Assembly: GCA_903908535.1 (NCBI GenBank)
Contig: CAIVSE010000022.1
Coordinates: 1-34,188 of the forward strand
DNA length: 34,188 bases
Source of the DNA: Candidatus Doudnabacteria bacterium
GTDB lineage: Bacteria > Patescibacteriota > Doudnabacteria > UBA920
Reading direction: 5' to 3'
The notes under the pieces are model-generated. The model worked only from the letters and a program-made list of their open reading frames with translations. It ran no database searches and had not been told where the DNA came from. The translations under genes and the position numbers were made by a program. How positions within the stretch are numbered: position 1 is the stretch's first letter; each line of letters begins with the position of its first letter. This document shows positions 2,783 to 22,416 of this stretch, piece after piece.

Positions 2783-3928
2783 ATGGATAAAGCTTATTTG
2801 CAGGAACTTATTAAAGAAGCCGAGCGCCGCGGCGGGGGATTGGTTATTAATCAAAATGATAAGCCCGCGGTAGTAATCATGACAGTAGATAAATATAATC
2901 AAATCCTTGCCGATAAAACCATGCCTCAAACCCAAACCGAAGATTTCCACAGCAATAACAACAAAACCATTTTAGTTACCGGCGGTGCCGGCTATATTGG
3001 CTCCCACACCTGCCGCGAACTTATCAAGGCCGGCTATAGTGTAGTGGTTTTAGATAACCTGTCCACCGGCAAAAAACAAAATATTCCGCCGGAAGCTAAA
3101 TTTATAGAAGGCGACACGGCCGACAAAAATTTACTTTTAAAGATTTTTACGGATGAACACATATACGCAGTTTTGCACTTCGCGGCCAGTATAGAGGTGG
3201 AAGAATCCGTGCGTGAGCCGCAAAAATATTTGCAAAATAATGCCCTTAACACGGCCAATGTCCTGGCGGCCATGGCCGAAAGCAAGGTCAAGAATTTTAT
3301 TTTTTCTTCCACGGCCGCGGTTTATGGCGACCAGAGCCTGATGCCCATTCCGGAAACAGCCAGAGCCAAACCAAACAACCCCTACGGTTATGCCAAATTT
3401 GTGGCCGAGAAAATTATCAAATACCACGCCCAGTTTATGGGGCTAAAGGCCGTTATCTTCCGTTATTTTAACGCCTGTGGCTGCGACTTCGACGGCACTA
3501 TTGTACCAACCCACCATTCCCACTTAATTCCCATTGTTATGCAGGCCGCGGCAGGGGATATACAGGCCTTAAAAGTTTATGGGAACGATTACAACACGCC
3601 CGACCACACCTGCGTGCGCGATTACGTGCACGTTTTGGATATTGCCCGCGCCCACGTGGTGGCCCTGGAAAAACTGGACGGCATAGAAACCTTTGAGGTT
3701 TTTAACATCGGCACCGGCACGGGCGAGAGCGTTCTGGACGTAGTTAATGCCGCAAAAGAGATCTTAAAAAAAGACATCCCGCTGGAATTTTTGGCCCGCC
3801 GGCCCGGCGACTCGGTTATCACCGTAGCCGACAACCGTAAAATCAGCCAAGCTTGGGGTTTTAAGCCCGAATTCAGCGATTTGGAAACCATAATAAAAAC
3901 CACCTGGAGGCAAATGTACCATGAATAA
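2783..3928 (+). CDS. galE: UDP-glucose 4-epimerase with Phd/YefM-like N-terminal extension
   Basis: VTGGAGYIGSHTCRELIKAG (NAD-binding), SSTAAVYGD, YGYAK (YxxxK), FRYFNACGCD. N-terminal ~40 aa 'LQELIKEAERRGGGLVINQNDKPAVVIMTVDKYNQIL' resembles Phd/YefM antitoxins. Confidence 0.9.
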   Translation: MDKAYLQELIKEAERRGGGLVINQNDKPAVVIMTVDKYNQILADKTMPQTQTEDFHSNNNKTILVTGGAGYIGSHTCRELIKAGYSVVVLDNLSTGKKQNIPPEAKFIEGDTADKNLLLKIFTDEHIYAVLHFAASIEVEESVREPQKYLQNNALNTANVLAAMAESKVKNFIFSSTAAVYGDQSLMPIPETARAKPNNPYGYAKFVAEKIIKYHAQFMGLKAVIFRYFNACGCDFDGTIVPTHHSHLIPIVMQAAAGDIQALKVYGNDYNTPDHTCVRDYVHVLDIARAHVVALEKLDGIETFEVFNIGTGTGESVLDVVNAAKEILKKDIPLEFLARRPGDSVITVADNRKISQAWGFKPEFSDLETIIKTTWRQMYHE

Positions 3929-4712
3929 AGGTATTGAACCTGTATTAACTCCTCGGCTCGCTTATCCTTTGCAGACAAAGGATAGACTCGCCTACGTCGT
4001 TAATAAACTTTCCGTAGTCATCCCGGCCTATAACGAAGAGCAAAGGATTGCCAAAACTTTGGAAGATGTGGGGCAATTTTTATCGCGCCAAGCTTATGAC
4101 TATGAAATTTTAGTTATAGATGACGGCTCTAAAGATAAAACCGCGGAAGTAGTGCGGCAATTGGGCATAAAAAATTTAATTTTGGTTGATAATAGAGAAA
4201 ATCACGGCAAAGGCTGGGTGGTAGGGCAGGGAATGCTTCAGGCCACGGGGGACGTTAGGGTTTTTATGGATGCGGATAATTCCACTAAAATAGATGAGAT
4301 TGCCAAGTTTCTGCCGGTGTTCGCCCAGGGTTTTGATATTGTTGTTGGTTCGCGTCGCATTAAAGGTTCTCATGTGCCCCAGGACCAGGGAGGCTTACGG
4401 GAATTTTTAGGTTGGGCTTTTAGGACTATTGTCCATATTATTGTGCCTGTCGGCGTTACCGATACCCAGTGCGGCTTTAAAGCCATGACCGCCAAGGCAG
4501 CCCAGCAAATTTTTCCCAAACAGACTATTTTCCGATGGGCCTTTGACGTGGAAATTTTGGCCCTGGCCCGCCGCAGCCATCTAAAAATTGCCGAAGTCCC
4601 CATTACCTGGGTTAACGACGCGGCCAGCCACGTAAAATTGGGCGGTATGTTAAACATGCTGCTGGAAGTTTTAACGGTCAGGTGGCACTTAATGACGGGA
4701 AAATACAAGTAA
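3921..4712 (+). CDS. Family 2 glycosyltransferase (dolichyl-phosphate glucosyl/mannosyltransferase-like)
   Basis: KLSVVIPAYNEEQRIAKTLEDV, EILVIDDGSKDKTAEV, FMDADNSTK, DTQCGFKAMTAKAA. Confidence 0.9.
   Translation: MNKGIEPVLTPRLAYPLQTKDRLAYVVNKLSVVIPAYNEEQRIAKTLEDVGQFLSRQAYDYEILVIDDGSKDKTAEVVRQLGIKNLILVDNRENHGKGWVVGQGMLQATGDVRVFMDADNSTKIDEIAKFLPVFAQGFDIVVGSRRIKGSHVPQDQGGLREFLGWAFRTIVHIIVPVGVTDTQCGFKAMTAKAAQQIFPKQTIFRWAFDVEILALARRSHLKIAEVPITWVNDAASHVKLGGMLNMLLEVLTVRWHLMTGKYK
3930..4001 (+). repeat. Palindromic stem-loop element inserted in frame in the glycosyltransferase N-terminus, flanked by direct repeat AATAAA (3924-3929 and 4002-4007)
   Basis: Perfect 9-bp stem TATCCTTTG-CAGA-CAAAGGATA (3963-3984); AATAAA flanks are 78 nt apart (26 codons); CTCGGCTCGCTTATCC recurs at about 22096-22111. 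Confidence 0.7.
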
Positions 4713-14562: not shown

Positions 14563-15552
14563 ATGATGAATGAATCCCCTAGGCCCATAATCAGTCATTT
14601 CACTAATTTTTTCGATTATTGCGATGTTGTAAAAGGTTTATCTTCCAAGTCGGTTGAAAACTATGGACGGTTTTTAATTCCGTTTAAAAATTGGTTAATT
14701 AAAGAAAAACTGGAAAATCTTAAACCTCACGAGTTAACCAGTGAACACATCTACCAGTACAGGCTATACCTCTCCAGGCAGCTAAGCGCTAAGGACGGCA
14801 AAAACTTAAAAAAGAGCACCCAGAATTATTATCTTATTGCCTTAAGGTCGCTGCTAATTTATTTTACTAAAAATGATATCTTAAGTTTGCCGGCGGACAA
14901 GATTAGCTTAGCCAAAGACGAAAAGGTTAAGAAGGTTAAATTTTTGAATTTGGACCAGTTGGAAAAATTGCTTCTCTCCCCTGCTACGGATACAATGAGC
15001 GGCCTGCGGGACCGCGCCATTTTGGAAGTTTTATTTAGCACGGGTCTGCGCGTGGGAGAATTAGCTTCGCTGAACCGCGACCAGATTAACTTGCCGTATA
15101 TTAAAAAGAACGCTATTAAAGAATTGGAATTACCCATAACCGGTAAGGGCGGCTACATCCGTACTGTTTATTTTTCCCAGCGGGCAATTTCGGCGTTAGA
15201 CAAATATATAACCAACCGCGCGGATTTAGACAAAGCTTTGTTTGTAAATTTTAAAAAAGATAATGGCCAGGATACCAAAAGGTTAACTATCCGTTCCATC
15301 GAACGGATTATTAAAAAATATGTGTGGTTGGCAGGGTTGCCGGTGGACACCACGCCCCACACTCTGCGCCATTCTTTTGCCACAGATTTGCTGGAGCAAG
15401 GCGTGGATTTAAGGACTATCCAGGAATTTTTGGGTCACAGGAATATTGTTACGACGCAAATTTATACCCACGTGACTAACAAGCACCTCAAAGACGTACA
15501 TATGTCGTTCCATAGCGGTAAAAAATTAAAAAGTAAAAATAATGAAAAATAA
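14563..15552 (+). CDS. Tyrosine recombinase (XerC/XerD family)
   Basis: LEVLFSTGLRVGELASL (catalytic R), TPHTLRHSFATDLLEQGVDLRTIQEFLGHRNIVTTQIYTHV (HxxR...H...Y). Confidence 0.93.
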   Translation: MMNESPRPIISHFTNFFDYCDVVKGLSSKSVENYGRFLIPFKNWLIKEKLENLKPHELTSEHIYQYRLYLSRQLSAKDGKNLKKSTQNYYLIALRSLLIYFTKNDILSLPADKISLAKDEKVKKVKFLNLDQLEKLLLSPATDTMSGLRDRAILEVLFSTGLRVGELASLNRDQINLPYIKKNAIKELELPITGKGGYIRTVYFSQRAISALDKYITNRADLDKALFVNFKKDNGQDTKRLTIRSIERIIKKYVWLAGLPVDTTPHTLRHSFATDLLEQGVDLRTIQEFLGHRNIVTTQIYTHVTNKHLKDVHMSFHSGKKLKSKNNEK

Positions 15553-15679
15553 TTTTTGTTTACCTTGGGATGAGGTGGAGAGTGCAATAAAAAAGGAAAC
15601 TCAATGGTTGAAAAACACCATACCTGTTCGACGTGATCAATCAATGTTTGCAGAATTGGAACGGACAAAGTATTCTTGA
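15542..15679 (+). CDS. Possible 45-aa small ORF overlapping the xer stop
   Basis: ATG inside the xer 3' end: MKNNFCLPWDEVESAIKKETQWLKNTIPVRRDQSMFAELERTKYS*; no recognised family. Confidence 0.25.
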   Translation: MKNNFCLPWDEVESAIKKETQWLKNTIPVRRDQSMFAELERTKYS

Positions 15680-16134
15680 GAATTTCGGAACTGGTTAATC
15701 TTAAGATAAACCAAATTAATAAAGACGGCCAGATATTTTTGCTGGGCAAGGGCAAAAAGGAGCGTTTTGTTTATTTAACGCCGCGGGCTAAAAAGTTTTT
15801 GCAGGTCTACCTGAATAACAGAACTGACAGTTCGCCTTATGTCTTTGTACCGTTTAAAGGCAGGAATGCCCACGATAAGGACAAAAAAATTTCGCCGAAT
15901 TATATCCAGTTTAAATTAAAAAAATACCGGGAACTTTTGGGGATTGTCATCCCAACCTCACCGCACTCTTTACGCCACGGTTTTGCCACCTACCTGGCCG
16001 AAGCCGGCGCCAGTGCGGCCGCCATCCAAATTTTACTTGGCCACGAATCTTTGGATACCACCACCAGGTACGTTAATACCTCCCAAAGGTACGCAAAAAA
16101 AGTTCAGGAAGAATTCCATCCGCTGAAAGATTAA
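15676..16134 (+). pseudogene. Truncated second tyrosine recombinase (catalytic domain only)
   Basis: LRISELVNLK (Arg I), GKGKKERFVYL, SPHSLRHGFATYLAEAGASAAAIQILLGHESLDTTTRYV. No N-terminal core-binding domain; in-frame stop at 15634. Confidence 0.7.
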
Positions 16135-22047: not shown

Positions 22048-22119
22048 TTATCCTAAAATCCTATATAATGTATACTGAAGTATAGATTCTTAACTTCTCG
22101 GCTCGCTTATCCGCCTCAG

Positions 22120-22416
22120 ATGGAATCCATTTCAAAAATCGTTAAAGTCAGCGGCAAATCCAAGGCGGAAAAGGTTAGAGTTAACCAGCACCTCCACTCT
22201 CCCGCCCATTTGCTGGCCGACGAACTGTGCCAAAAATTCAACGACAAAAAACATTTTGGCTTTTATTTAAAAATGGCCACGCTTTATGACCATGGCATGC
22301 TGCGCGCATTGGCCGGCCAGGTTTTGGAAGGCAAAAATGTGCAAACCCCCGGCAGACTATTTGCCTATTTAATTAAAAAGAATAACGCCTCCGCCAAGGA
22401 AGCGGAAAATTTATGA
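22120..22416 (+). CDS. Conserved-looking hypothetical protein upstream of def
   Basis: Stop overlaps the def start by 4 nt (ATGA); 98 aa, no recognised motif. Confidence 0.65.
   Translation: MESISKIVKVSGKSKAEKVRVNQHLHSPAHLLADELCQKFNDKKHFGFYLKMATLYDHGMLRALAGQVLEGKNVQTPGRLFAYLIKKNNASAKEAENL

Follow-up and report, generated by a model that had tools for sequence, protein, structure and literature searches.

Why does a glycosyltransferase gene in a Doudnabacteria genome open with 26 codons that its relatives lack, and what kind of DNA supplied them? The question arises in a 34,188-nucleotide stretch of Candidatus Doudnabacteria DNA (the window). Here, an open reading frame (ORF) at 3921-4712, on the plus strand, was assigned to the GT2 glycosyltransferases from the ORF table, its domain match (PF00535) and its orthologues. 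Direct reading of the window places its start ATG at 3921-3923, followed by AATAAA at 3924-3929 and again at 4002-4007. A first-pass annotation had taken this segment for a stem-loop inserted in frame, similar to the Rickettsia palindromic elements (RPEs). The features on which it relied are confirmed by the direct reading: the AATAAA copies are exactly 78 nt apart, a perfect 9-bp stem lies at 3963-3984, and the unit makes up 26 codons which keep the frame, with zero stops in the ORF table. The inserted residues read GIEPVLTPRLAYPLQTKDRLAYVVNK and are placed behind the first three GT2 codons.

The ORF upstream (2783-3928, plus strand; ORF table and domain match) encodes an NAD-dependent epimerase. 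Its stop codon, TAA at 3926-3928, falls inside the left ATAA tetranucleotide at 3925-3928. The epimerase stop thus overlaps the GT2 start, and it is the overlap sequence, ATGAATAAA, that supplies this ATAA. The upstream ORF is itself a fusion, in which a Phd/YefM antitoxin-like domain (residues 4-48) is joined to the UDP-sugar epimerase domain.

In the relatives, GT2 orthologues with identities of up to 75% align with the window protein only from about residue 27. They carry no such insert and start with M[NK]KLSVVIPAYNEE, M(N/K/Q/T)KLS or an equivalent, for example ATGAACAAATTATCC in one relative (G009) and ATGAAAAAATTATCC in several others. Their DNA opens with ATG AA(A/C) AAA TTA TCC or similar. 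The first-pass annotation had proposed that removal of the 78-nt unit restores the canonical start, and this was borne out: the window DNA then reads ATGAATAAACTTTCC, which matches the orthologous start. The GT2 frame is broken if the unit is excised without one ATAA being left behind. Since the orthologues are without the insert and begin directly with M[NK]KLSVVIPAYNEE, the GT2 case is, by sequence comparison, a genuine in-frame insertion. From the insert to the catalytic N-terminus there is no alternative ATG, GTG or TTG, and GGAGG lies about 10 nt upstream of the ATG at 3921; the 26 residues would therefore very probably be translated if the gene is expressed. As their position is outside the GT-A fold, we infer that the insertion was near-neutral. 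The GT2 copy is a tolerated insertion and not evidence of protein innovation.

The inserted sequence is also found elsewhere in its own genome. Dispersed copies were detected by blastn, with E-values down to 1e-24. Twenty-four own-genome copies served to build a covariance model, which recovers 31 strong matches (E<1e-5) across the 1.04 Mb; matches C35 and C88 each lie at a contig end and may represent a single copy that the assembly has split. Both results, orthologues without an equivalent N-terminus and a sequence that is not unique in its genome, agree with the insertion that the first-pass annotation had read here.

The copies share a common layout: a left domain and TTARC, followed by CTCCTCGGCTCG, which is invariant, a hairpin whose sequence is free, then CTCGC(N)CTACGTCG and GYNA, with ATAA at the end. 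The left domain starts directly after an ATAA, has the form AGGTTC...GAACCT and encloses 0, 1 or 2 inner hairpins; the units fall into length classes of 70-85, 90-116 and 139-174 nt. The window copy is a short form of 78 nt at 3929-4006 (plus strand, like all its parts), delimited by the blastn and covariance-model copies and by its absence from the GT2 orthologues, with the right ATAA (4003-4006) as its end. Its left domain is minimal, consisting of hairpin P1 (AGGT-ATTGA-ACCT, 3929-3941), and is much longer in the long copies. Next come the 5' arm of stem P2, TTAAC at 3945-3949, whose covarying partner GTTAA lies at 3999-4003, and the largely unpaired left core CTCCTCGGCTCG at 3949-3960. These are followed by hairpin 2 (3963-3984), with the arms TATCCTTTG and CAAAGGATA at 3963-3971 and 3976-3984 around a 4-nt loop, and by the right core CTCGCCTACGTCG at 3987-3999. 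In the alignment of copies both cores are conserved, and the stem sequence of hairpin 2 varies. Folded as RNA, the window unit gives z = -3.2, and 0 of 200 shuffles fold as well. The window holds a second, truncated copy on the plus strand at about 22064-22112 (blastn and covariance model), which retains TATAAT (a -10 box), the left hairpin GTATACTGAAGTATAG and the left core and misses the right half. It directly precedes an ORF at 22120-22416.

It was further observed that the stems are maintained by compensating changes. The P2 pair occurs as TTAAC/GTTAA, TTAGC/GCTAA (the commonest), TTGGC/GCCAA, TTTGC/GCAAA and TAAAC/GTTTA. In the outer stem, 346 of 430 cells are Watson-Crick pairs against 298 +/- 5 after reshuffling of the arms, and its fourth pair (A-T/G-C) is formed in 70 copies where 41 are expected. 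Hairpin 2 is distinct in 80 of 86 sequences, and 62 of the 86 still fold better than all 50 of their shuffles. Most right cores contain CTAC, so that, read on the minus strand, GTAG stands at the 5' foot of an imperfect hairpin 2. Isolated stem mismatches comprise 16 A-C and 10 G-T, without an excess of G-U, and both strands fold equally well; constraint at the DNA level is therefore at least as likely as constraint at the RNA level. The ends of the element, AGGTTC... and ...GCTA/GCGA, are not complementary, so that there are no terminal inverted repeats.

The element is present in 11 of the 22 genomes of the same Doudnabacteria family, at 2-31 copies each, and further genomes from the same genera have none; owing to this patchy spread, it is not simply inherited. 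One species from another family of the order gives a weak match. A scan of 85,462 species genomes for the exact core returned named matches almost all from Candidatus Doudnabacteria, the rest being unnamed Patescibacteria, and only two outliers. The first, a contig labelled Legionella sp. (L124, JARLJR010000064), carries a strong copy by the covariance model and is probably a mis-binned contig of Doudnabacteria origin, since its ABC-F protein resembles, as judged by eye, one beside an own-genome copy. The other (L129, labelled Microbacteriaceae, 72% GC) looks like a chance match and was set aside, as the covariance model does not recover it. Viral contigs gave no exact-core match.

Evidence of movement comes from one relative, G018, where several copies at different loci are nearly identical. 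This genome also has no fewer than five copies, at five loci (L259-L263) and each with ATAA ends, in which the core of the element is interrupted by the same two foreign palindromes, TTCCGCC...GGCGGAA and CTGCCTGGCGGCAGGCAG. As the same nested palindrome is carried by copies at five loci, the composite copies have been amplified and the family is mobile. In one of the five, the hairpin modules that surround the same nested insert are different, which suggests exchange between copies. A separate observation concerns another relative, G020, whose GT2 orthologue (L086) has a different palindromic insert, TCCGCCGGAGGCGGATCCGCCTTTGGCGGA, in frame and near the same N-terminus; read as its reverse complement, this insert is the palindrome that lies nested within the element in G018.

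Where, then, does the element insert? ATAA stands before and at the end of the unit in 51 of 51 copies in which both ends were parsed; the parser demanded ATAA and so passed over 21 of 72 copies, those with decayed ends. Outside these flanks, the parsed copies share no constant sequence except a preference for A, and insertion is strand-specific relative to ATAA. The AATAAA pair had initially been taken for a target-site duplication, and this view is not upheld: the flank is the constant ATAA (3925-3928 and 4003-4006 in the window), a sequence-specific target and not an ordinary duplication. The constant ends fit a 4-bp site-specific duplication and a rule of target plus element end alike. The GT2 insert is likely one member of a mobile family of Doudnabacteria that is non-autonomous and forms hairpins, and it would have entered ATAA in a strand-specific manner, so that ATAA ended up on both sides. 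The target would be the ATAA that arises where the epimerase stop overlaps the GT2 start, with the epimerase stop retained, and 78 nt devoid of an in-frame stop would add 26 residues after the third GT2 codon.

As for the agent of movement, IS200/IS605-type HUH transposases act on elements that have no terminal inverted repeats, insert in a site- and strand-specific manner and carry subterminal hairpins. Non-autonomous derivatives of this group, such as the PATE-like elements, share these traits and insert next to a short motif. The present element is similar in its sequence-specific and strand-specific site and its subterminal hairpins. The leading proposal, which is tentative and falls somewhat short of an even chance, is that it moved in trans as a folded single strand, its insertion into ATAA being driven by an IS200/IS605-type (HUH, Y1) transposase. 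The lack of terminal inverted repeats, the asymmetric ends, the subterminal hairpins and the minus-strand GTAG support such a step. Y1 genes (PF01797) occur in 12 of 12 element-positive and 18 of 49 element-negative genomes (p 5e-5, shared ancestry ignored), and within the family alone in 11 of 11 positive against 4 of 11 negative genomes (p 0.004, shared ancestry again ignored). Among the Y1 gene neighbourhoods examined, none was flanked by element ends, the loose regex matches being noise, and no single Y1 subfamily is obviously common to all positive genomes. The likeness to IS200/IS605 derivatives also stops short in that no autonomous insertion sequence with the ends of the element was found, nor TnpB in the element-positive genomes. 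IS110 was rejected as the mobiliser, as it is present in only two positive genomes and not in the own genome.

The minus-strand GTAG also recalls the repetitive extragenic palindromes (REPs) mobilised by REP-associated tyrosine transposases (RAYTs). GTAG REPs have this motif at the 5' foot of an imperfect hairpin (PMC8266576, PMC3733652), and the TAG in their ends can supply the stop codons of neighbouring genes (PMC3733652), much as the ends of the present element supply TAA. RAYT-like Y1 genes are found in many of the positive genomes. However, that the element is itself a REP moved by a RAYT appears unlikely: the unit of 70-174 nt is 2-5 times longer than the 20-40 nt of REPs, has two domains and fixed ATAA ends, and does not adjoin a RAYT gene, the RAYT genes here being flanked by other palindromes. 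Seven such genes (L200, L201, L203, L206, L207, L208 and L210) have palindromes of their own, e.g., GTGTCAAGGGTCGCCCTTGACAC.

Returning to the site-specific mobile element, its left ATAA often serves a neighbouring gene, either in the stop codon of an upstream gene or as part of a -10-like box, TATAAT. At one locus (L038), it is the stop of a sense ORF upstream of atpC, and seven or more of the own-genome copies have it within a TATAAT box of the downstream gene or region. Such TATAAT or stop-codon sites are strongly enriched (10 of 17 sites, compared with 45 of 487 ATAAs in the background; p about 5e-7), an enrichment that selection against other sites could produce. The own polA, galU and tyrS genes each show TATAAT, the element, (G)AATAAT and then the ATG. 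In relatives, the same genes have TATAAT close to the start codon and no element, with a distance of 6-7 nt in most polA genes; at tyrS, the stretch to the left of the element (AAAATGGTATAAT) has near-identical counterparts in two relatives (G005 and G016). A TATAAT 6-7 nt before the ATG, as seen in several Doudnabacteria housekeeping genes (polA, galU, tyrS; loci L213-L254), is the layout of leaderless transcripts.

These positions raise the question of whether the element is primarily a cis-regulatory RNA of the 5'-UTR, a riboregulator between -10 box and start codon, with the GT2 copy an accidental by-product. The TATAAT left flank of seven parsed copies, a start codon at most 40 nt downstream in 8 of the 17 parsed own copies, the strongly conserved core and the covarying stems would all suit such a role. 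Against it, there are copies at 3' ends and in the spaces between genes, the host genes are unrelated to each other, and the polA, galU and tyrS orthologues do without the element. Further, the balance of mismatches and the equal folding of both strands are unlike an RNA-level constraint, and no Rfam match was obtained at gathering or permissive thresholds. A riboregulator as the primary identity of the element is therefore quite improbable.

Retrotransposition of a structured element, or its movement by an Xer/integron-like recombinase, is more doubtful still. Reverse-transcriptase genes are present in 9 of the 12 positive genomes, but RVT_1 was not found in the other three, and reverse transcriptase was rejected as the mobiliser for this only partial co-occurrence. 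The window does contain tyrosine recombinases; however, integron attC sites have an invariant AAC/GTT in their core sites, whereas TTAGC/GCTAA dominates here, and the stems show no preference for G-U. At 14563-16134 of the window, a full tyrosine recombinase ORF lies ahead of a further ORF whose match is limited to the C-terminal catalytic half. Finally, that the GT2 N-terminus is ancestral or unrelated and similar by chance has next to no probability, being contradicted by the dispersed homologues and by orthologues without the segment, and no support for it was found.

The mobile family can also be compared with other short repeats. Miniature inverted-repeat elements (MITEs) such as BOX and ERIC are short, non-autonomous, dispersed, modular and sometimes situated in coding sequence, and so is the present element. 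It differs in having no terminal inverted repeats, in length classes that arise from left-hand hairpin modules, and in its flank, which is the constant ATAA in the 51 parsed copies and not a target-site duplication of variable sequence.

The resemblance to RPEs claimed by the first-pass annotation stands only in part. Both are dispersed palindromic elements, and at the GT2 copy alone a short palindromic repeat enters an ORF in frame and adds tens of residues. For N-terminal RPE-1 insertions in R. conorii, expression in vivo has been described (PMC3733652, citing Abergel 2006). Nearly half of the R. conorii RPEs are intragenic (PMC10969869), whereas the Doudnabacteria family does not mainly colonise ORFs: among about 31 own-genome copies, GT2 is the one clear in-frame coding insertion, the others being situated between genes, in 5' leaders or at stop codons. 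The lineage differs as well, as the scan of species genomes for the exact core gave no match in Rickettsia. Moreover, the Doudnabacteria element has constant ATAA flanks, and its stems, hence the encoded peptide, vary between copies. The element works like an RPE at the GT2 locus but, by lineage and by intragenic bias, is not an RPE. The literature searched, with subscription papers and preprints outside it, gave no description of such an element in Patescibacteria or Doudnabacteria; the small mobile hairpin repeat family is real and apparently undescribed.

Because the target ATAA occurs in stop codons and -10 boxes, neighbouring genes are spared and insertions are tolerated. In front of polA, galU and tyrS, the copies seem to have replaced short or missing 5' leaders by long structured ones. 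A bolder reading, for which the chance is low, is that this is a mobile leader element: it would target ATAA in the -10 boxes of genes with a leaderless layout (TATAAT-N6-ATG), keep the promoter, extend the mRNA by some 75 nt of structured 5' leader and so rewire, in a minimal genome, how the translation of polA, tyrS, galU and other housekeeping genes is controlled, moved by a single-strand mechanism not yet known. The most interesting lead comes from the copies that lie in -10 boxes. Reduced genomes of the candidate phyla radiation carry active-looking small mobile repeats that are able to decorate proteins, much as RPEs do in Rickettsia.
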